From Bartonella sp. MM73XJBT.G (GTDB lineage: Bacteria > Pseudomonadota > Alphaproteobacteria > Rhizobiales > Rhizobiaceae): a stretch of 64,000 bases of DNA. A program made the translations under genes and the position numbers. Location: positions 124,001-188,000 of the forward strand of contig NZ_JAQISW010000002.1 in NCBI RefSeq assembly GCF_028618435.1, in the 5' to 3' direction. Position 1 is the stretch's first letter. Each line of letters opens with the position of its first letter. The notes under the pieces were generated by a model. That model saw only the letters and a list, made by a program, of their open reading frames with translations, was not told the origin of the DNA and searched no databases. This document shows positions 4,045 through 14,629 of the stretch, in pieces.

Positions 4045-4120
4045 GGGCGATTAGCTCAGCTGGTAGAGCGCCTCGTTTACACCGAGGATGTCGGGAGTTC
4101 GAGTCTCTCATCGCCCACCA
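4045..4120 (+). tRNA. tRNA-Val (anticodon TAC)
   Basis: A 76-base cloverleaf with encoded CCA. Acceptor GGGCGAT pairs with ATCGCCC, the discriminator is A, and anticodon stem CCTCG/CGAGG holds loop TTTACAC with anticodon TAC. Its 3' end faces the prophage remnant, the usual geometry for an integration site, but I found no duplicate of its 3' end inside the island. Confidence 0.97.
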
Positions 4121-4249
4121 TATGCTTTCACCTTTTATGTAACTTATTTATTTTTCATATGTTTTTTAGGGTTAGGGGAGCTAGAATAAAGGTGAGGGAA
4201 TAGGATTTTGCAACATGCCTCTCAATTATTGCGAATCAGAACTTCTTTT

Positions 4250-4504
4250 CTAGGTATTTTTTATGAGAACTTTAGAATAAAAAATCTTACGATATTTCTC
4301 TTTTCCTAAATTAAGAGGAAAACTAGTATCATAATTTTTGGCTTTATTTTTTCTACTATAATGATGACTACCTAGAAGAAGATCATTTAAAATTTCTTGC
4401 CATTGAAGATTCGTTCCTGATGTTAAGAGGCTCTCCTGTGCTAAGCTTGTATCACCATTATGATGAGTTTTTAAAAATCTAATTCTATTAGGAATATCAA
4501 ACAT
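4250..4504 (-). CDS. Uncharacterised 84-residue protein at the prophage edge
   Basis: I do not recognise this product. The ORF is 84 residues, begins MFDIPNRIRF, is hydrophilic and basic at its C-terminus, and has no membrane segment or known motif. A good ribosome site (AAGGAAG) precedes the ATG. It starts nine bases after the upstream membrane-protein gene, so it is probably the last gene of the lysis-like cluster. It may itself be a truncated or frame-altered remnant, since neighbours on the island are broken. Confidence 0.45.
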   Translation of the reverse strand: MFDIPNRIRFLKTHHNGDTSLAQESLLTSGTNLQWQEILNDLLLGSHHYSRKNKAKNYDTSFPLNLGKEKYRKIFYSKVLIKNT

Positions 4505-4513
4505 AAATCTTCC

Positions 4514-4732
4514 TTAACTCTTCGTGAGCCACTTTTTAAAGTGTGAGAAGCTATTTTCTATGGCATCGATGAAACGGGACAAATCCATTACAAAGATAAA
4601 GATAATGAAGGTAATCCACCTCATAATGCCTGACATCATCTTTAAGCCTTGATAGGTTTCTATCATCTCGTGAAGCAGCCGTCGTTCTGTTTCCGAAAGG
4701 TTTTTTCCCCGCTTACTTTGATTGCTACTCAT
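4514..4732 (-). CDS. Small single-pass membrane protein, possibly holin-like
   Basis: A 72-residue product with a basic, hydrophilic N-terminus (SKRGKNLSETERR), one hydrophobic segment at about residues 36-54, and a short charged tail. The ATG at 4732 has GGTGG just upstream; a GTG at 4744 would add four residues. The start overlaps the end of the lipoprotein gene. Its place directly after a spanin-type gene pair suggests a role in phage lysis, such as a holin. That is inference from context; size and topology fit, but I recognise no family signature. Confidence 0.5.
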   Translation of the reverse strand: MSSNQSKRGKNLSETERRLLHEMIETYQGLKMMSGIMRWITFIIFIFVMDLSRFIDAIENSFSHFKKWLTKS

Positions 4733-4928
4733 TTTGCCACCCACATAAGCGTGCTCCCTGTTGAGTATGCTTTAAAATATCTCTTGCTAAATTGGGACTG
4801 AGAGCGTTCAGATCTTGCTTGTCTAAATAAATGGGCAACCAACCAACACAAGAAACAGACCTATTGGCCGCACATCCAACGAGACAAAGCAGCACGCACA
4901 CCAGCATCACTTTTTTGATTAATTTCAT
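4725..4928 (-). CDS. Rz1-like outer-membrane spanin lipoprotein (prophage)
   Basis: A 67-residue lipoprotein: basic start MKLIKK, hydrophobic core, then a lipobox LVGC with the modified cysteine at about residue 19. The mature part has the Cys...Trp-Leu-Pro-Ile...Leu...Ile-Leu-Lys-His...Leu-Cys pattern of small phage lysis lipoproteins. It begins inside, and in a different frame from, the coiled-coil gene at 4861-5071, which is the classical overlapping Rz/Rz1 arrangement. Rz1-type proteins join an inner-membrane partner to disrupt the outer membrane during lysis. That partner appears broken here, so this gene is probably non-functional in lysis. Confidence 0.65.
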   Translation of the reverse strand: MKLIKKVMLVCVLLCLVGCAANRSVSCVGWLPIYLDKQDLNALSPNLARDILKHTQQGARLCGWQNE

Positions 4929-5071
4929 TTTCTACCTCAAGGCGTGTTCTCGCTTTCTTTAATGCTGTCTCTGTTTGTTTTTGCCGCTCGCTTTTCTTGC
5001 CAAGCTGAAAAGCTTTGCCTAAAATCATAAAAAAAAACGGCTAAAGCCGCTAACAGAAGAGACAGATTTCT
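4861..5071 (-). pseudogene. Rz-like inner-membrane spanin, frameshifted in a T9 run
   Basis: From an ATG at 5028 the frame encodes 55 residues, a charged coiled coil (GKKSERQKQTETALKKARTR) ending in the typical SRWM tail of phage Rz-like proteins. No membrane anchor is present in that frame. Just upstream, in another frame, lies a perfect anchor (SLLLAALAVFF, 5038-5071). The two join if the nine-T run at 5029-5037 loses one base. No ribosome site precedes the ATG, since the T run abuts it, and I find no clear start codon for the anchor part. I read it as a decayed inner-membrane spanin whose 3' half overlaps the Rz1-like lipoprotein gene. Confidence 0.6.
5029..5049 (-). terminator. Possible rho-independent terminator, or chance hairpin
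   Basis: On the minus strand CGGC-TTTA-GCCG is followed directly by nine T. It would end transcription from the DUF1376 remnant. The same bases encode the membrane anchor of the spanin relic in one frame, so the hairpin may be coincidental. Confidence 0.3.
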
Positions 5072-5950
5072 TTACGGATAAGGTTACGGATTGCCTCTCC
5101 GGTACCACCACGAGTTCTTTGATCTTTTGAAAAGTTTCCATTGTTTCCACCATTGTTGTTTGTGTTTTTTGTTTTTTCTAAATCATCAATCGCCTTGCGT
5201 ACCCAGTTACGCCATTGTTGCTTGCCAATCGATTTTGATTGCATTTGCACCGGCTTTTGAACGCCAGTAGTCACGAAATTTTGCCATTTCGACTTTGATA
5301 CGCTCTGGAGGCAAGCCCTCTGCAAGTGCAAAATCATAATTGGGTTCAAAATCAGCAGGCAATCGACAACCTCGATCAGTGTTAACCTGCTTGGCTTTTT
5401 TCGGAACGTTTTCTTGCTCGTGAATGGGAGGTGGGGGTTCTGATGATGTTGTGTTTTGTTCTGATTGGCTTTGGAGGGTATCAACCTCTGTTGGCTCTTG
5501 AACCAAATCGTTTGTTTCTAAATTTTCAGAATTAATTTCTTTTTTGCTAAAACGATAGTTTTAGTTTTTTTATATATATTCTTATTCTGGTTCTTTATAG
5601 CTTGATTTTGCTTGCGCACCTTTTTACCAGCTTCACTACGAACTTGCGATATGTTGTCTTTTTTATCAGCAAAATCGTTCAGCTCTTCTTCAACGCGCGT
5701 ATTCCACAATCCATTATCTGTCTCAACAAGTTTATCATTCCTCATTAGTATTCAACAATAGCTGCAAATTTTTTCTGCGAACAATAACAAATGCGTGCAA
5801 GCGTTTGAAAGTCTGTTTTAAGTGGTTCTTTTTTTCATACATGCAAACGAGAAGGGTTATATAAACGCCCCGTTGTTCAAGTGTCATTCCATTTGTACCA
5901 CTTATCCAGTCATACAAATAAAATCTTACCCATGGCATACCATTAGACAT
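5050..5950 (-). pseudogene. DUF1376-type (YdaU-like) phage replication protein, several frameshifts
   Basis: One ancestral gene can be read across frames. The N-terminus (MPWVRFYLYDWISGTNGM at the 5950 end) is the DUF1376 signature found beside phage replication genes. It is thrown out of frame at an A7 run near 5830; reading one frame over restores LARICYC and KKFAAIVEY. A lost T near 5751 leads into RNDKLVETDNGLWNTRVEEE. The linker near 5550-5640 is scrambled and carries stops. The C-terminal part (RLPADFEPNYDFALAEGLPP) runs to 5222, where one extra A separates WQAT from WRNWVRKAIDDLEK. The start overlaps the resolvase gene by eight bases. At least four lesions make function very unlikely. 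Confidence 0.75.
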
Positions 5951-6413
5951 GTGTACCCCCCCCTTCTTTCATTAAATATAAAATTGCCAAAGCATCTGCT
6001 TCATTATCATCTTTAGGCGCGCGCCCTTTTGCACAAACCGCTTTAATCATTTCTCCTTTTGAAGCATTACCCTTCCCTGTTGTCGCTTTCTTAATCGTAC
6101 CAACTGGAATACCTTCGTACGGTATCTGATGATGTTCACACCAAGCCGTTAAAGTTGCTAGAAAGCCACCGTAAACATGCGCTGCATCAGTCCCCACATG
6201 CCGGCGTACTTCTTCAAAATACACCGCGTCAATTTCATCAACAGACCTCTTTAGTTCAGAAAGCCACTTCTTAAAGCGCAGATAACGCATACCACCGCCT
6301 TCAAAACGGCGTGATTGAAAATGTTCTGTATCGCTTGTTATGTGACCATCAGCACCGCATATAGCCCAGCCAGTCTTGCTACCTAGATCAAGACAGAGAA
6401 TCGTGTTAGTCAT
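5943..6413 (-). CDS. RuvC-like crossover junction endonuclease (prophage)
   Basis: A 156-residue RNase H-fold resolvase of the RuvC superfamily, expected to cut branched DNA during phage replication or recombination. Visible acidic catalytic candidates are D9 in CLDLGSKTGW, E67/E68 in YFEEVR, and D136/D140 in KDDNEADALAI, with the basic IKKATTGKGNASK segment between them. Length and motif order are complete, so this is one of the few intact genes of the island. It was probably co-transcribed with the now broken DUF1376 gene, with which it overlaps by eight bases. Confidence 0.8.
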   Translation of the reverse strand: MTNTILCLDLGSKTGWAICGADGHITSDTEHFQSRRFEGGGMRYLRFKKWLSELKRSVDEIDAVYFEEVRRHVGTDAAHVYGGFLATLTAWCEHHQIPYEGIPVGTIKKATTGKGNASKGEMIKAVCAKGRAPKDDNEADALAILYLMKEGGGTHV

Positions 6414-6453
6414 TTTAATGTTCCATTAGTTATTTTTTAAATGAGGGGGGGAA

Positions 6454-7096
6454 ATGTTAACGATATTTGAATACTTTTCTACAATATCTCTCGCTGCTAT
6501 TGCTATTCATGCTAGTGTTTCAGTTTGGACAGATATGAAAACGCAAACAACAATCTCTAGGGCCTAAATTACAAATTAATTATACAAAAACGCTAGCAAA
6601 TGTACCTTACGATTCAAATGAAAATCCCACATTCAAAGTAGATTTAACCTTCTACAATCCCACAAAACAAGCAATTAAGATAAATAATATCTGGCTAGAT
6701 CCCCAAAATCCGTTTCAATTTGTTGAAGCTCTCTATCCCAGTCCAAATCACAAAATTATTAAAGAACAAAGCGTCAATATCCCTATAAAACCTAAACACA
6801 TCAATTTAATAGATCCTCAGTTAAAACCGGAACCAGAGAGTACATTTGACCTGTTTAATGTAGAGAGTAAGAAGGAACTTACAATTTTATTGACTATTCA
6901 AGCTATGCAACCAGATATAGTAACTCCTATAAATATTATTGTAGAACATACTTTCTCTAACTATCCCAATAAAACACTTAAAGCTTTTTATTGCATTGGC
7001 TTTTTTCGTTTTTCAGAGACGCAAAGATTGAATTTTTGGGCTAAGATATCCAAGACAGAACGCACTCTATATCGTTCCCTCACTCGCGATGAATAA
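6454..7096 (+). pseudogene. Uncharacterised membrane-anchored protein, one frameshift
   Basis: The ATG at 6454 follows a strong GAGGGGGGG ribosome site and encodes one hydrophobic N-terminal segment (EYFSTISLAAIAIHASVSVW). The frame stops at 6567-6569. A second open stretch with no start codon runs from about 6555 to 7096 (LGPKLQINYTKTLANVPYD onward, about 178 residues). Removing one A from CAAACAACAA near 6545-6552 joins them into a product of about 213 residues. The extracytoplasmic part is a soluble beta-rich-looking domain that I do not recognise. It is divergent from the resolvase gene by 40 bp. Confidence 0.55.
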
Positions 7097-7169
7097 AAGA
7101 TTAAGTAAAGAGTTATACACTAAAAACAAGCTGTAAGGTCTAAGTCTTTAGTTATCTTATTTTCTTCTC

Positions 7170-7259
7170 CTATCTGTTATTGTACCAATGAAAAAATACA
7201 ATAATATTCAAAACCATAATCGATATGGACAGTAATGATATTGCTAAACCGTAATCCAT
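7170..7259 (-). CDS. 29-residue predicted single-pass membrane peptide
   Basis: A very short ORF with an ATG at 7259, two bases after the stop of the broken HTH gene, and an AAGGAAA ribosome site at good spacing inside that gene's end. The peptide is almost wholly hydrophobic (GLAISLLSISIMVLNIIVFF) and ends in HWYNNR. I recognise no family. Coupling to a regulator and the membrane-peptide composition make it a plausible small prophage protein, but 29 residues can arise by chance. Confidence 0.35.
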   Translation of the reverse strand: MDYGLAISLLSISIMVLNIIVFFHWYNNR

Positions 7260-7261
7260 CT

Positions 7262-7529
7262 TTATTTCCTTTCTTCATATTGAGGTTGTACCATCTTATT
7301 TTGTTCACACGGCTTTTCACTCAAACTGAAACCGTTGACAAAAGAAGACGTTGGAGGTGATTGTTTATTCCATAACGCTTCGAGAAGATATGCAACGGCT
7401 CCCCTTGAAAGAACACCATATTTTCCCAACGCCATACTGTTGATATTTGTTGACGCCTAACCGTTCTGCCATTTCTTTCAGAGTTAAATTCAGATTTTTA
7501 CGTAACTGTTTTACTGCTATTTTTCCCAT
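7262..7529 (-). pseudogene. XRE-type HTH regulator, frameshifted
   Basis: The start MGKIAVKQLRKNLNLTLKEM and the following AERLGVN form the first part of a Cro/C1-type helix-turn-helix. The ATG frame then loses homology and stops after 54 residues. One frame over, the protein continues as YGVLSRGAVAYLLEALWNKQ and ends EERK at 7262. A one-base indel near 7464 joins the two into about 89 residues. It is divergent from the intact regulator at 7617, the layout of a phage repressor/Cro switch. Confidence 0.6.
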
Positions 7530-7616
7530 AAAAAATAATATGCATTATGACTACTTAAAAGTCAAGTCGAAATGCATACCGATTATATGCAATATGAATA
7601 TATTAAGGAGATAAAA
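7530..7616. promoter_or_regulatory. Divergent regulatory region between two HTH genes
   Basis: It holds TGCATTATG at 7541-7549 next to the broken HTH gene, further ATGCAT-like words (AAATGCATACC, TATATGCAATATG) and the AAGGAG ribosome site of the rightward gene. The same 9-mer recurs upstream of the next gene at 8140-8148 (inverted) and 8169-8177. I infer operator sites for one of the HTH proteins. Confidence 0.45.
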
Positions 7617-7970
7617 ATGCTTAGTAACACGATAGACCAATCTGCTAGATTAATAAAAGCGCGTTTAGCGCGTGGTTTTAGGAGTGCAAAAGAAGCAGCT
7701 AGATATTTTGGCTGGAACTACTCTAGCTATATACAGCACGAACAAGGATTAAGAGGAATATCACGGGCATCTGCAAAATATGCAAAAGCATTTAGAATTA
7801 GTGAAGGGTGGTTATTAACCGGAGAGGGAGACGGTCCCTCCTTTCCAATCCCCGCGACAAAACAAACCGTTGATGAGCAAATTATTAATCTACTACAAAA
7901 AACAACTCAGCCAGATAAAGAAACAATTCTTCACCTTTTAAATCGCCTGCATGCAAAAGAAAAAAAATAA
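7617..7970 (+). CDS. XRE-family transcriptional regulator (prophage)
   Basis: A 117-residue DNA-binding protein with a Cro/C1-type helix-turn-helix at about residues 10-65 (AKEAARYFGWNYSSYIQHEQ, then SEGWLLTGEG, typical of phage repressors). The C-terminal 50 residues are a short helical tail without a LexA-like peptidase, so induction by RecA-triggered cleavage is not expected. I use the ATG at 7617, preceded by AAGGAG; a start at 7572 would read through the regulatory region. It appears intact while its divergent partner is broken. Confidence 0.75.
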   Translation: MLSNTIDQSARLIKARLARGFRSAKEAARYFGWNYSSYIQHEQGLRGISRASAKYAKAFRISEGWLLTGEGDGPSFPIPATKQTVDEQIINLLQKTTQPDKETILHLLNRLHAKEKK

Positions 7971-8060
7971 AAGCTTTTTTCTTTCATTACTAAATGTAGA
8001 AACCAGCTGCATAATTTTGTTATCTAATTCTATATCACTTTTTATTGTTTTCATAACCAT
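7938..8060 (-). CDS. Possible 40-residue ORF with strong ribosome site
   Basis: ATG at 8060 with AAAGGAGA nearby. The product starts MVMKTIKSDIELDNKIMQLV, is charged and helical at first, then turns to a phenylalanine run and ends inside the 3' end of the convergent HTH gene. No family is recognised, and the poor C-terminus suggests a truncated or spurious gene. Confidence 0.25.
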   Translation of the reverse strand: MVMKTIKSDIELDNKIMQLVSTFSNERKKLLFFFFCMQAI

Positions 8061-8138
8061 TCACTTTCTCCTTTCATGAGAATCGTCATTTAGAAAAAAT
8101 CTTCTTACAAGATTTTTATATCGTTAAAAATAAAATAT

Positions 8139-8179
8139 ACATAATGCATATTTTATTGTTGATATGTATGCATTATGCG
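8139..8179. promoter_or_regulatory. Operator-like inverted 9-mers upstream of the 8243 gene
   Basis: CATAATGCA at 8140-8148 and TGCATTATG at 8169-8177 are exact reverse complements 20 bp apart. They match TGCATTATG at 7541-7549 in the divergent HTH region. Three exact copies in about 640 bp, all in non-coding DNA beside a repressor-type gene, suggest repressor binding sites. Confidence 0.5.
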
Positions 8180-8242
8180 TATTGTATATATTCCATAAAC
8201 CACGCACAAACAATTACCAAGAGGTGTTAGGGAGGAGAAATT

Positions 8243-8616
8243 ATGGAAAATCCAATTCTTATAAATTCTGATGAAATTTTATTAGTTACCTACGATGATG
8301 ATCAAAACATTGCAGAGTCTGGACCACTTGATGAAAGCCAAATTCTAAGCATTGTTGATGAGGGAGATGATGCAATCCAAATCTTTCGTATAAATCCTTC
8401 TGAGAATAGTTGTGAAGACATTTCTGAAGATATCGCGGAATTTTATCTTAGAGAAAGTGAAGAACAGTGTTTCAACGAAAACATATCTCACGACTTTATT
8501 TTACACAGCACAGCATACGGTTTTTTTTAGACGATATAAAACAGCGTGAATATGACGATGCAATGTACGGTTCTTACGAACAACAACACCGTTTGCGTAC
8601 TTGTGATGTGCTTTAA
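8243..8616 (+). pseudogene. Uncharacterised acidic prophage protein, frameshifted in a T8 run
   Basis: The ATG at 8243 follows GGGAGGAG. The first frame gives 95 acidic residues and stops right at a T8 run (8521-8528). Reading one frame over after the run continues LDDIKQREYDDAMYGSYEQQ and ends at 8616, so a T9 ancestor would encode about 124 residues. I recognise no domain; it is rich in Asp and Glu. It sits downstream of the operator-like repeats and before the antirepressor gene, so it belongs to the early control region. Confidence 0.5.
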
Positions 8617-8681
8617 ATTCTGAAGGGCGCATTTAAAAGCGCCCCTTTCATTCATCAAGTCCCGTCAATATGAGGTTCGTA

Positions 8682-9431
8682 ATGGAAAAGCCTATTGCTA
8701 TCCAACAAAATACAATCAAACACGAAACCGTTCAAACGGTCAACGCACGTGAATTGCATGCATTTTTGGAAGTTAATTCCAATTTTAGAGATTGGATTAA
8801 AAATCGTATTAAAGAATATAATTTCCAAGAAAATCAAGATTTTATAATTTTCGCTAAAATTTTAGCGAAATCCTTAAGAGGGCGTCCAAGCATGGAATAC
8901 CACCTTACCTTAGACATGGCAAAAAAACTTTCCATGTTAGAGCGTAACGAAAAAGGTAAAGAAGCCCGTCAATATTTCATTGAATGCGAGCGGCGTGTAA
9001 AACAATTCCCTCAATTAAATCTTGCAAACGCTCTAGAAAATCCTCTCTTTGTGAAAAAACTGCTTTTAGAAAGCGTCACACAATTAGAGACCTTAAAAAG
9101 TGAAGTGGTACCCTTAAACCAAAAGCAGCTGCACTTGAAAGTTTACAGCGCCATGATGGGCTCTTTGGTCTTACAGAAGCCGCGAAAATACTCGAGATGC
9201 AACCAAAACAGTTCATTCAATTTTTACAGAAAAAAGGTTGGGTTTACCGGCGTGCAGCAGGTGGAAATTTACTTCCTTATCAAGACAAAATCCAAAAGCA
9301 ACTGATGGACTGTCCAACCATCACACTTCCAAACCGCCAGTGGAATAGAAAAAGTCATTCCTTGCGCAAAAATCACAGCAAAAGGAATTGGTGTGCTGTC
9401 TCAAGAGCTTAAAAGACAAAGCATGCATTAA
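8682..9431 (+). pseudogene. Phage antirepressor (AntA/AntB plus KilA C-terminal type), two frameshifts
   Basis: Antirepressors counter the phage repressor. The first frame carries an AntA/AntB-type N-terminal domain (VNARELHAFLEVNSNFRDWI, then RRVKQF at about residue 110). After a frameshift near 9115 the sequence continues in another frame as PKAAALESLQRHDGLFGLTE, then AAKILEMQPKQFIQFLQKKG, a KilA C-terminal/ANT domain. A second indel after QLMD near 9311 restores TASGIEKVIPCAKITAKGIG and the end at 9431. I prefer the start at 8682 because GAGG lies upstream; 8670 is the longer option. Rejoined, the protein would be about 250 residues. Confidence 0.7.
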
Positions 9432-9443
9432 GAGGAGGTTATC

Positions 9444-9695
9444 ATGATAAAAAAGAAATACGAATTTACTGATGAGACAACTTGGATATACGGAAATAAG
9501 TTAACTTATCGTATCCGTGCATTGAGAGATTTTGCTTATATCAAAGCTGGTACCTTAGGTGATTTTATTGAAAAGGAAAGAAACTTATCACATGATGGCA
9601 ATTGCTGAATATATGATAATAATGCTGCTGTTTATGATGATGCTGTAGTTTATGACAATGCAGAGTTTTTTGGGAATGCTAAGATTTTTGGTGAT
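9444..9695 (+). pseudogene. Beta-helix repeat protein with in-frame TGA, truncated by fusion to integrase
   Basis: An excellent AGAGGAGG site precedes the ATG at 9444. The frame gives 54 residues and meets TGA at 9606-9608, then continues open with short repeats (IYDNNAAVYDDAVVYDNAEF) of about six residues, typical of left-handed beta-helix folds. A tryptophan is expected at the TGA, as in the earlier TWIYGN unit, so TGG-to-TGA is the likely lesion. The repeats end near 9695, where the same frame runs into integrase sequence, marking a deletion junction. The function is unknown. Confidence 0.5.
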
Positions 9696-10411
9696 CACTC
9701 ATATAAAAGTATAGAAAAACAACATATTCTTGATGCTGTAGACAGAAGGCGTGATACTCCCGCAGCAGCAAGACACTTTTTAACTTCTCTAAACGGTCTT
9801 TTTAATTGGGCGGTTAATAATGCCCTTTTAAATAGAAATCCTGCCTTTAATATAAAAGCACCAAAATCTTTGAACAGAGAGGGATTACTGCCATGGCTAG
9901 AAGAGGACATAGACAGATATTATCACCATTGCTCCCATGGTACACATGAACGTGTATGGATTGACGTCCTTTTGTATACCGGCTTGCGTCGTGGTGATAC
10001 AGTTCGTATCGGCTGGAAAGATGTCAAAGATAATATCATCCATCTTAAAACAGAAAAGAGCCAATTTAAAACAGACGTTTTTTTACCAATTTTACCTGAA
10101 TTAGCAGAAATTCTTAAAATTGGTCCTATTGGTAATGAAACATTCATCTGCGGAAAAAATGGAAATAAACTCGTAAAAGAAAGTTTTGGCAATCTATTTC
10201 GTAAGGCGTATAATGCGGCGGGTATTAAAAAATCAGCGCATGGATTGCGAAAATTAGCGGCCACCCGCGCAGCTAATACCGATGCTACGGTTTCACAAAT
10301 GAAAGCGCTTTTTTTGGCTGGACAGAAGATAAAATGGCATCCCTTTATACCAAAACAGCCGATAGTAAACGCCTTGCAATAGAAGCAATTAAAAAACTTC
10401 AAAAAAACTAA
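9696..10411 (+). pseudogene. Tyrosine-type phage integrase, N-terminus missing and C-terminus frameshifted
   Basis: A site-specific recombinase that would integrate or excise the prophage. The start of the core-binding domain is lost; the remaining part begins SIEKQHILDAVDRRRDTPAA and includes FNWAVNNALLNRNPAF. The catalytic domain shows TGLRRGD (first Arg) and HGLRKLAATR (His, Arg). A seven-T run at 10309-10315 shifts the frame; one frame over restores GWTEDKMASLYTKTADSKR with the nucleophilic Tyr, ending at 10411. The only start codon in the open frame is a TTG at 9870, mid-domain. The gene should be inactive, so the island cannot excise itself through it. Confidence 0.8.
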
Positions 10412-10465
10412 GGCAATGGATAGCAACTACAAATAAAGCAAAGCATTAGAAAATTATGAATAAAA

Positions 10466-10765
10466 TCAAATAGTTGTTTGATTATCATCAGAAACTAGAG
10501 GAGAAATAGGTGGTTGTGCTTGTTGCATTGTTTGCCATAAATTATAGTTTGTTTGCATATCTAACCAAAATTTTGCTTTACTAAAACCAGCCAACTCTAA
10601 TTTAACTGCAAGCTCGGTACTCATAGAAGCATGTCCGTTAATCACTCTTGAGAGAGAAGCTCTTGTCATATGGAGGTGATCAGCTAATTTTTGTATTGAT
10701 AGCCCCATTTCTTCCAAAAAAGCTACTTTTAGAACTTCGCCTGGATGTGCAGGATTATGCATCAT
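10466..10765 (-). CDS. higA: HigA-type antitoxin
   Basis: A 99-residue XRE-family antitoxin of the HigBA type. It binds the HigB toxin and represses its own operon. The start NPAHPGEVLKVAFLEEMGLS and the HTH (IQKLADHLHMTRASLSRVIN) are the family hallmarks, and the frame is intact. It follows the toxin gene by 18 bp with an AAAGGAG ribosome site, in the toxin-first order typical of hig loci. Because the toxin is frameshifted, the antitoxin is effectively an orphan regulator. Confidence 0.85.
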   Translation of the reverse strand: MMHNPAHPGEVLKVAFLEEMGLSIQKLADHLHMTRASLSRVINGHASMSTELAVKLELAGFSKAKFWLDMQTNYNLWQTMQQAQPPISPLVSDDNQTTI

Positions 10766-10783
10766 TTGTTTTTGCTCCTTTCA

Positions 10784-11064
10784 TCAATGGTAGTCTTGAT
10801 AATCAACAAGCTCCACATCTGTTCCTATAAAGCGAAAAGTAACACGCCAATTTCCATTCACCCATATGGAATAGTATTCTGTAAGTTCACCTTTAAGAGG
10901 ATGCATTTTAAAGGCAGGTGCTTTCAACATTTCAGGCGTCGTAGCACTTGTTAAAGCTGTCAAGATAACGCGTAATTTTCTACGTGATCTGGTCGAATCG
11001 CTTTTGTGGAACCTGTTGTATAAAATAATTTTAAGCCCTTATGTTTGAAACTCACAATTGCCAT
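10784..11064 (-). pseudogene. higB: HigB-type toxin, frameshifted
   Basis: HigB toxins are RelE-fold ribosome-dependent mRNA nucleases. From ATG 11064, after GGGGCGG, the frame reads MAIVSFKHKGLKLFYTTGST and then KAIRPDH, exactly the family N-terminus, but ends at a TGA after about 35 residues. From 10984 the next frame continues RKLRVILTALTSATTPEM and on to NGNWRVTFRF and VELVDYQDYH at the end. The joint at 10980-10985 lacks about four bases compared with the usual DHARKLR. All other family motifs are conserved, so the break looks recent. Confidence 0.8.
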
Positions 11065-11075
11065 TACCGCCCCTT

Positions 11076-11098
11076 ATCGTATATCATAACTATACGAT
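11076..11098. promoter_or_regulatory. Palindromic operator candidate of higBA
   Basis: ATCGTATA at 11076-11083 and TATACGAT at 11091-11098 form a perfect 8-bp inverted repeat with a 7-bp spacer. The pair lies 12 bases upstream of the higB start, where HigA-type antitoxins bind to repress their operon. Confidence 0.6.
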
Positions 11099-11203
11099 TA
11101 ATAAAAAATAAGAGTCAAGCAGCCTGCTAGTAAATCCAGTTATCTAGATAAAATGATTGAGAATAAACTATAAAAGGTTTGGGATAGACAGAAAAACAAG
11201 CTA

Positions 11204-11257
11204 ATAAAATCAATAACCATAAAATTCCCTAACCTTTATATAACTTATTGATTTTAT
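11204..11257. repeat. Perfect 13-bp inverted repeat
   Basis: ATAAAATCAATAA at 11204-11216 is exactly repeated in reverse complement at 11245-11257, with 28 bases between. It sits between the hig locus and the integrase remnant. It has no T run after it, so a terminator is unlikely. It could be an arm-type binding site, a small mobile-element edge, or chance in AT-rich DNA. Confidence 0.5.
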
Positions 11258-11275
11258 ATAAACACAGCATCCTCC

Positions 11276-11417
11276 CCATCACAGCTTAAAGTACTTTTAG
11301 GCTGGATAGAAAACAGCATGGCATCATTTTATACACAAAATTTTATACACAAACAACCAATAAAAAACGGCAATAGCATTAATAAAAAACATGAAAAGAC
11401 TCAGGGGGGAGACATAA
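11276..11417 (+). pseudogene. Second integrase C-terminal remnant
   Basis: Only the last 45 or so codons survive: SQLKVLLGWIENSMASFYTQ aligns by eye with SQMKALFGWTEDKMASLYTK of the integrase at 9696-10411, including the catalytic Tyr. A 14-bp tandem duplication follows; removing it gives TTNKKR, matching TADSKR. One frame over comes AIALIKNMKRLRGET and a stop at 11417. The divergence between the two copies points to a different integrase, and so to an older integration event next to tRNA-Arg. Confidence 0.6.
11326..11353. repeat. 14-bp tandem duplication
   Basis: ATTTTATACACAAA occurs twice back to back (11326-11339 and 11340-11353), inside the integrase remnant just after the catalytic Tyr codon. 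The +14 shift breaks the frame, consistent with replication slippage in a gene no longer under selection. Confidence 0.8.
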
Positions 11418-11479
11418 AATAAATTAATAGAATGAAAGGAAAACTCTTGAATACTTCTATCTATTAATTTTCTTAAATA

Positions 11480-11556
<77 letters not shown>

Positions 11557-12731: not shown

Positions 12732-13421
12732 TTACGTTTTTTTTCTATTCAAAACTTCGGCAATCACAGCACGCGTTATTTTTCTTTTTCTTTGTAACGC
12801 CAATTGATCAACAGAATCAATAACATGTTTCAATGAAAATAAAGAACGTTCACAACGGCTGATAAGATAATAAACTGTATCTGGATGTACAATAAGCTGT
12901 CTATCGGAAAAAAGCTTAAAGGCAACAGCTGTTAACAATGCATCATCAGGCTGATTAATTTCAACTAACATCACCGAATTAAGACGACTTTTTAGATCAT
13001 TTAACTTTAGATTCCAAGTAGAAGGGAGTGTTCGTGCCGTCATCAATAAAGTAGCTTGTCGCGCATCAACATTTGTTTGCTTAACACTGTTAATTAAATG
13101 AAAAAGTTCTGTTTCACTAATTTCACCAGAATCAATATCCTCTATTAAAAATGATCTACCTAAAGAAGCCATAGCAACAGCTTGATCAATTTTATTATGC
13201 TGAATCCTAAATGCATTTGCTTTTTGCAGCCATATACTCGAAAAGTGCGTTTTTCCAGCTCCTTCTTTTCCAACCAAAACGGCAATAGGTAAGCGCCAAT
13301 TGGGCCAATGATCAATAAGCTGAAAAGCCATACGATTGCTATCCGTCACGACTAAATCATCAAATTGAAAAATCGGTTCATAAGGAAAATTTAAAGATAA
13401 TTGCGTTTCTCGCCCATTCAT
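12732..13421 (-). CDS. hdaA: DnaA-inactivating AAA+ protein HdaA
   Basis: A 229-residue Hda-family protein. With the DNA-loaded sliding clamp it promotes ATP hydrolysis by DnaA and so prevents re-initiation of replication. The N-terminal QLSLNF at residues 7-12 fits the clamp-binding motif. GKEGAGKT at 51-58 is the Walker A loop, with FLIEDID near 91-97 as the Walker B-like strand, and the arginine-finger helix region follows. The start overlaps the stop of the permease gene by four bases (ATGA), so the two are translationally coupled. Confidence 0.9.
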   Translation of the reverse strand: MNGRETQLSLNFPYEPIFQFDDLVVTDSNRMAFQLIDHWPNWRLPIAVLVGKEGAGKTHFSSIWLQKANAFRIQHNKIDQAVAMASLGRSFLIEDIDSGEISETELFHLINSVKQTNVDARQATLLMTARTLPSTWNLKLNDLKSRLNSVMLVEINQPDDALLTAVAFKLFSDRQLIVHPDTVYYLISRCERSLFSLKHVIDSVDQLALQRKRKITRAVIAEVLNRKKT

Positions 13422-14629
13422 TTTAGCGGCTCCGACTTTCCACTTCGCGAATACATCTGAGAACTAAGATAAGTATGTAGGGCAAAACGAACTAAAACAC
13501 CCACAGCCGCCGCTGCAGGAACAGCAACAAGCATACCAGTAAAACCAAAGAGTGAAGAAAAAGCAAAAAGCGAAAACATCAACCACACGGGATGTAATCC
13601 CACTGATGAACCAACAAGTTTTGGTTGAAGAATATAACCTTCAATAAACTGACCAATTAAAAAAAGTACCATCACAATAATGATTCCCCCCCAATTATTG
13701 GGATAAAACTGGACCCATGCAATCCCAACAGAAAGGAGAAAACCACTCATTGTTCCGATATAAGGAATAAAGCTAATAAGGCCAATAAACATACCAACCA
13801 AAAGACCAAAATTGAGCCCTGCAATCGTTAAACCAATAGCATAATAGCCCCCCAATATGAGGCAAACGGTTCCTTGTCCACGAACAAAGCCTGCTATAGC
13901 TCTGTCCATTTCATGAAAAATACTTCGAACGGTTTCAAGATGATCACGTGGTATTAACGAATCAATTGCTGTCACCATACGTGGCCAATCTAATAACATA
14001 TAAAATGTTACCACAGGTGCCACAACAAATAGACTAACGATATTAACGATAGACTTTCCTGATTTCAAAAGTGAATTCAAAAGAGATGTAATAAAATCAG
14101 AACCTTCTCCTAAAAGCCCTTTAATATTACTCCGTAATTCATTTGGATCACTTCCAAAATAGTGCCTTATCCAATCAAAATCATGTTCAACAAAAAAGGT
14201 TTGAATACGATTAATATAAACAGGTAAGCCATCACTCACAAATTGCTGTATTTGCGAACTAATAATAGGAATCAGAATAACTAAAGCAGCAACAAAGATA
14301 ATAACAATAAATAAGGTAATGAGGACAGTACCAAAAACACGACGAATACCAAACTTTTCAAGCAATTGAACAATGGGATTAAGAAAATAAGCCAACACAA
14401 TTCCTGCTACAAAAGGAAGCAAAATTGATCCAAAAACGAACATAAAAAGAATAAAAAAAATCAGCGCTCCCAGCCAAAAAAAGATTTGTCTTTTCATATT
14501 ATTCGGCAAAGGTAATTGCGTATATGCAGGCACATAAGTCTTATAACGGTTACGGGATGTGTTCTCACTCCCTTTCTTTTTCATAAGTTCCCACGAAGAC
14601 TGTCCATGATTATCTGATATCTTGCTCAT
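13418..14629 (-). CDS. AI-2E (PerM/YdiK-type) family transporter
   Basis: A 403-residue inner-membrane protein of the AI-2E transporter family. Hydrophobic segments lie near residues 48-85, 100-125, 190-212 and in a C-terminal block from about 250 to 385, with the family's central soluble insert between them. The substrate cannot be told from sequence; members transport varied solutes or ions. The N-terminal 45 residues are basic and probably cytoplasmic. The 4-bp overlap with hdaA makes this a two-gene operon, an arrangement also known in other Rhizobiales. It is divergent from purM. Confidence 0.85.
   Translation of the reverse strand: MSKISDNHGQSSWELMKKKGSENTSRNRYKTYVPAYTQLPLPNNMKRQIFFWLGALIFFILFMFVFGSILLPFVAGIVLAYFLNPIVQLLEKFGIRRVFGTVLITLFIVIIFVAALVILIPIISSQIQQFVSDGLPVYINRIQTFFVEHDFDWIRHYFGSDPNELRSNIKGLLGEGSDFITSLLNSLLKSGKSIVNIVSLFVVAPVVTFYMLLDWPRMVTAIDSLIPRDHLETVRSIFHEMDRAIAGFVRGQGTVCLILGGYYAIGLTIAGLNFGLLVGMFIGLISFIPYIGTMSGFLLSVGIAWVQFYPNNWGGIIIVMVLFLIGQFIEGYILQPKLVGSSVGLHPVWLMFSLFAFSSLFGFTGMLVAVPAAAAVGVLVRFALHTYLSSQMYSRSGKSEPLK

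Follow-up and report, generated by a model that had tools for sequence, protein, structure and literature searches.

The window, by which we mean the whole 64,000-nt stretch of Bartonella DNA that was analysed, was found to contain on its minus strand, read 5′ to 3′, a RuvC-like gene, a frame-broken primosomal gene, a spanin remnant and a third small gene. We read the region as a small prophage remnant located between tRNA-Val and tRNA-Arg. Its features are the following (window positions):

4514–4744, minus: third cassette gene, open, with a product of 76 aa in which a single hydrophobic stretch was recognised by eye; overlaps the end of the o-spanin gene
4725–4928, minus: o-spanin (Rz1-like lipoprotein), 67 aa, open frame, lipobox LVGC; matches phrog_1275 (Rz-like spanin, E 1.1e-12)
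4861–5028, minus: i-spanin remnant, periplasmic coiled-coil part, 55-aa frame; matches phrog_1026 (Rz-like spanin, E 3.3e-7)
5029–5037, minus: T9 run, as against T7 or T8 in 88 of the 93 open copies
5029–5051, minus: terminator-like hairpin and U-tract (T2), AGCGGC-TTTA-GCCGTT followed by T; consensus scan (5051–5036), same site in 72 of 87 open cassettes
5029–5069, minus: i-spanin remnant, anchor part SLLLAALAVFF in the other frame, without ATG, GTG or TTG start; nearest open copy L002
5070–5073, minus: deletion junction, AAAG, from comparison with primosomal homologues and spanin copies
5050–5950, minus: primosomal protein gene (PF07120/phrog_3992 type; profile matches) in several frame-broken pieces, 3′ end cut by the junction
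5943–6413, minus: RuvC-like resolvase gene, belonging to this prophage remnant as well; phrog_159, E 1.8e-31
7572–7970, plus: repressor-like part
8670–9305, plus: AntA-type antirepressor
9870–10382, plus: integrase part
11480–11556: tRNA-Arg

Attachment-site repeats were sought between the tRNA genes (4100–11500) and none that was credible was found; the sole candidate, an AT-rich pair of 22-nt direct repeats, was not accepted.

An earlier note, made from the sequence alone, had described a coiled-coil frame ending in SRWM, a lipoprotein gene starting inside it in another frame, and a membrane anchor in the third frame just before a T9 run. All three were present as described: the coiled-coil frame (coiled-coil-like by eye), the lipoprotein gene and the anchor SLLLAALAVFF, with the T9 run at 5037–5029. 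Their assignment to an Rz/Rz1-type pair was borne out by PHROGs, in which both frames matched Rz-like spanin profiles, and phrog_1026 and phrog_1275 also matched the open pair of a related locus, L149. In Pfam, no match above cut-offs was obtained for either spanin, and searches of phage records gave weak matches alone (o-spanin best E 0.05, 12 records; i-spanin one match, E 1).

In such pairs, a complex of i-spanin and o-spanin spans the periplasm and disrupts the outer membrane (PMC6139136). The o-spanin lipobox is given there as [LVI][ASTVI][GAS]C and the classes of spanin gene overlap are defined; the LVGC of the window o-spanin conforms to this motif, and its G18 and C19 were invariant in nine aligned copies. 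In the relatives, the o-spanin starts 160 nt after the i-spanin start and in the +1 frame, and the two genes overlap by 68 nt in L149. This is the organization of the overlapped class (phage P2 type; PMC6139136), which has the same anchor and periplasmic helix in the i-spanin and the same +1-frame lipobox protein overlapping and outreaching the i-spanin; in the Bartonella relatives an endolysin adjoins. Thus, of the lambda-type overlap proposed earlier, the gene overlap itself stood, but not the embedded form of lambda Rz/Rz1, as the Bartonella o-spanin reaches past the i-spanin. Compared to the overlapped class, the window copy lacks a start and an endolysin, whereas most Bartonella relatives additionally contain a terminator-like hairpin inside the i-spanin gene and a third overlapping small-protein gene.

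Matches to the o-spanin with E 2.1e-20 or better were present in 55 of 71 Bartonella genomes; 14 of the remaining genomes had weak matches alone (E 5.2e-5 to 0.065) and two had none. When named genome contigs were scanned, 134 relatives were confirmed, from which 79 distinct loci, all titled Bartonella, were kept. In total, 153 sites in 143 loci gave 104 distinct copies with sufficient flanking sequence, the window included, after exclusion of fragments and of copies without flank. An i-spanin with a start, a hydrophobic anchor and a length of at least 65 was found in 93 of the 104, though not in the window, and is 75 codons long as a rule when open; an o-spanin 60 or more residues long was found in 100. 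An endolysin match upstream of the i-spanin was likewise present in 100 copies, nearly always at most 8 nt away, the primosomal gene taking this place in the window. A match to the third gene was found near the o-spanin in 88 copies. In L149, the order is endolysin, i-spanin, o-spanin, third gene, and neighbours overlap pairwise (L149 positions):

14195–14176, minus: leader terminator-like hairpin and U-tract, directly before a GGAGG stretch
13494–14183: endolysin; PF00959, E 1e-50
13270–13497: i-spanin; phrog_1026
13134–13337: o-spanin; phrog_1275
12923–13153: third gene, overlapping the preceding cassette gene

The genome that carries the window contained eight o-spanin matches, namely the window copy, five further full-length copies and two fragments at contig ends. 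The five full-length o-spanins were 62–91% identical, and all five had open i- and o-spanin frames.

The nearest open copy to that of the window was found in L002 (88.5% identity over 235 nt), with a T run one base shorter. The window i-spanin is without a start because its 5′ end has been replaced by the end of the primosomal gene. All nine primosomal homologues compared matched the window down to 5070–5074 and then diverged, and the spanin copies matched it from about 5070–5073 onward. The AAAG at 5070–5073 occurs at the same place in the spanin copies and in two of the nine primosomal homologues (L158 and L161), the others sharing less; the junction may contain a microhomology, of 4 nt at most. 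With up to two mismatches allowed, the junction was found in one of the 71 genus genomes, the window's own, and an exact search of viral contigs gave none. These sequence comparisons show a deletion in which the primosomal gene, an early gene, became fused to the i-spanin near its codon 6 and the endolysin was lost. Among the matches listed, the primosomal gene and the spanin lay on one contig and strand, with the spanin downstream, in 17 placements, at a distance of 19.9–30.3 kb in ten (nine genomes) and of 37–60 kb in seven. Judged from this spacing, the deletion probably removed about 20–30 kb or more, endolysin included.

The proposal of the earlier note that a one-base change had disabled the cassette was therefore correct in part: the frame is broken at the T9 run, but about five codons have been lost as well, along with the start codon. 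The coiled-coil frame is in frame with the relatives and aligns to their 75-aa open i-spanins, but it has no ATG until the T run ends and is thus left without the membrane anchor. Together, the primosomal fusion and the extra T mean that no anchored i-spanin can be made from the window copy, which is a pseudogene of the two-component spanin family rather than a working member of it. The ninth T could be a sequencing or assembly error. Comparison of the window and L002 o-spanins over codons 24–60 showed four synonymous and two non-synonymous changes; in these small counts there was no clear relaxation, and the decay may therefore be recent.

A pair that still works, with its i-spanin restored through slippage at T9 or through an alternative start, would fit with the o-spanin and third gene frames, which are still open, and with a CTG codon present in the anchor frame, and T9 is in principle a slippery length. 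However, the anchor frame contains no ATG, GTG or TTG in the interval from its upstream stop to the T run, so that slippage would have nothing to join, and slippage rescue was ruled out for this reason. Furthermore, no endolysin match adjoins the window pair, the primosomal gene is fragmented by frame breaks, and the genome has five other copies with both frames open. Rescue in any form is thus considered extremely improbable.

The T8 form, which the earlier note had suggested looking for in related strains, was found in open relatives. The longest T run among the 93 open copies was T7 in 62 and T8 in 26, was shorter or absent in five, and was never T9. Eleven copies, the window included, were disrupted; in six of them (L001, L023, L050, L073, L078 and L137) the T run had an indel of one base. 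One copy had an indel beside the run (L067), and indels in an A-rich stretch near the start were seen in L047, L091 and also L050, while L027 and L028 had 5′ ends without homology. Homopolymers are thus a usual site of failure, as is expected in decaying genes. These six copies could alternatively reflect a phase-variation switch in which one-base changes in the T run turn the spanin, and thereby lysis, on and off, particularly as the T-run indel was the only gap in the compared stretch in five of the six and no other lesion was noted in L073 and L137. Such a switch is nevertheless very unlikely: 93 of the 104 distinct copies are open, most runs are just 7–8 long, and both dead prophages and certain assemblies can be expected to show indels in homopolymers. 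In addition, several of the copies concerned carry further damage, i.e., a stop in the anchor frame (L023), a shortened o-spanin (L078), two further missing bases (L050) and the lost start of the window.

In most open copies, the T run was located directly 3′ of an inverted repeat, e.g., GCGGC-TTTA-GCCGC or ACGGC-TATA-GCCGT. A terminator-like site ending at nt 48–58 of the i-spanin was detected in 72 of 87 distinct open 75-codon cassettes, with a GC-rich though short stem, a short loop and a U-tract directly after it on the sense strand; the stem-alone energy was −4.5 to −6.1 kcal/mol. Across −300 to +750, or the part of this stretch available at each locus (masked bases read as A), it was the only 10-nt bin with at least four of the 87 cassettes, and the antisense strand had none. 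The 15 cassettes without the site mostly have a variant anchor sequence, and the cassette does therefore not need the hairpin. A consensus scan found the i-spanin hairpin in the window, in L149 and in both copies of L129. The total number of terminator-like sites exceeded that in shuffles for L149 (10 vs. 2.6), but not for the window (2 vs. 1.9) or L129 (16 vs. 14.0). From its position, the T run looks like the U-tract of an intrinsic-terminator-like hairpin written in the anchor codons of the i-spanin, which would account for its presence.

Conservation at the nucleotide level beyond what coding needs was found at this site. In 28 representatives less than 88% identical, compared with synonymous shuffles using the codon usage of 624 ORFs from named Bartonella loci, the mean hairpin energy was −5.98 kcal/mol vs. 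−3.14 (sd 0.44) and the mean T run 7.25 vs. 5.78 (sd 0.27), neither observed value being reached in 400 shuffles; since the copies are related, these comparisons overstate independence. For single copies, hairpin p-values were 0.02–0.23 where the hairpin was present and 1 in the four representatives without it. On a tree built without the hairpin, third-position parsimony changes averaged 3.0 in codons 14–19 and 10.0 elsewhere in the i-spanin, codon 20 (five changes) being left out of both means; no other gene was noticed over codons 14–19. In the 75 of 93 open copies that fit the codon pattern, phenylalanine was encoded in the T run by TTT 138 times and by TTC once, compared to 138 and 40 times elsewhere in the gene. 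The results give good evidence of nucleotide-level constraint at the hairpin.

Evidence for a real stem at this site was moderate. On the tree, pairs 39–52 and 43–48 each kept pairing in seven of eight inferred changes (14 of 16 together), compared to three of 15 for the other three stem pairs. In column shuffles 82.1% of cells paired vs. 85.7% observed, and the covariation score of the structure (0.279) was equalled when it was slid by +3 columns (0.286). This mixed pairing evidence and the modest single-copy p-values would fit a hairpin and T run that are a by-product of coding Ala-Ala-Leu-Ala-Phe-Phe, or an RNA element acting in translation, with no transcription stop. Ala-rich stretches readily give GC palindromes, and the hairpin could be covered by a ribosome that initiates at the i-spanin. 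This explanation deserves some weight but appears unlikely, as it would have to accommodate a hairpin and a T run that each lie beyond all 400 shuffles across the representatives, a roughly threefold lower third-position change at the hairpin codons, a pair-keeping double change made through two amino-acid changes in two of 87 copies, and a U-tract that directly follows the hairpin on the sense strand only.

A second terminator-like hairpin was found in the leader of the endolysin. The endolysin start could be placed in 79 cassettes, of which 60 contained the leader hairpin, stronger than the i-spanin site; in 58 of these 60 it ends 17–24 nt before the start codon. Energies ranged from −4.0 to −16.6 kcal/mol, with 50 at −8 or lower. 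The 19 cassettes without it include some with a different sequence upstream of the endolysin and some with weakened forms. By eye, the leader hairpins showed many paired changes between copies. In L149, the leader U-tract is followed by ATGGAGGATTGAG and then by the start ATG of the endolysin; a promoter hardly fits in this short gap, and we infer that the endolysin is probably reached by readthrough.

A C-terminal hydrophobic stretch was seen in 87 of 88 ORFs upstream of spanin copies, the only listed one below the hydrophobic threshold being the primosomal fusion of the window; the L149 endolysin is a PF00959 phage lysozyme. The same succession of an endolysin with a C-terminal hydrophobic stretch and overlapped spanin genes occurs in the Enc34-type lysis module (PMC8943055). 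In Enc34, however, the catalytic domain is PHA02564, described as having no recognisable similarity to other types, in contrast to the PF00959 lysozyme of Bartonella, and a holin-like gene comes first, whereas the one upstream gene tested in L149 gave no holin match. The third cassette gene gave no convincing family match in profile searches and is a candidate holin or lysis regulator.

Taken as a whole, it is probable that the window holds the decayed lysis end of a prophage, with the lesions described above and a T run that is the U-tract of a terminator-like hairpin with a proposed gating role. In the open relatives, the endolysin, i-spanin, o-spanin and small membrane protein are encoded in tight overlap. 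The endolysin would cut the wall, after which, as is established for two-component spanins and as we infer for Bartonella, the i-spanin in the inner membrane and the o-spanin in the outer would together disrupt the outer membrane. The i-spanin hairpin and the stronger site before the endolysin would limit transcription of the spanin genes, and of the endolysin, until readthrough, antitermination or a closely following ribosome let the polymerase pass both sites. In the window, neither gating nor lysis can work with no start, no anchor in frame and no endolysin.

A more specific version, which we put forward tentatively and as rather doubtful, is that the two sites act as serial terminators gating lysis stepwise, one before the endolysin and one in the i-spanin anchor codons, with an antiterminator or a ribosome carrying the polymerase through. 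As part of this proposal, one set of nucleotides would serve at once as codons of a transmembrane helix and as a transcription stop. Antiterminator control of lysis genes has its model in lambda Q. The nearest worked-out parallel is found in Pseudomonas aeruginosa, where AlpA lets the polymerase bypass intrinsic terminators located before the alpBCDE lysis genes, bypass being needed (PMC7969949); compared to the AlpA system as described there, one of the Bartonella terminator-like sites lies inside a coding region.

A 2024 study, in whose text the terms spanin, endolysin, holin and terminator do not appear, reported that intact prophages of Bartonella and Brucella in its data were devoid of lysis genes, and called for detailed sequence analysis to decide between true absence and misidentification (PMC11080155). 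The strong spanin matches in 55 of 71 genomes and the lysozyme beside 100 of 104 copies show that these cassettes are present in Bartonella and, for this genus only, favour misidentification. Among the titles listed from the open-licence literature, none was on Bartonella spanins, on this cassette or on a terminator inside a spanin gene. The broken pair of the window is itself ordinary prophage decay; more worth pursuing are the hairpin within the i-spanin gene and the widespread occurrence of the cassette. If the hairpin is a working terminator, the phage would set the order and dose of its lysis proteins by a stop inside a coding sequence, and this would explain the retention in the gene of a homopolymer that is the site of breakage in some copies.

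Two further observations concern copy number and arrangement. The highest number of spanin matches in one genome was 15 (G027), and multiplication of prophages or of the cassette therefore seems common in Bartonella. The viral contig L129 contains two opposite-facing spanin cassettes about 4 kb apart (about 9880–10207 and 14103–14598), each with the hairpin.
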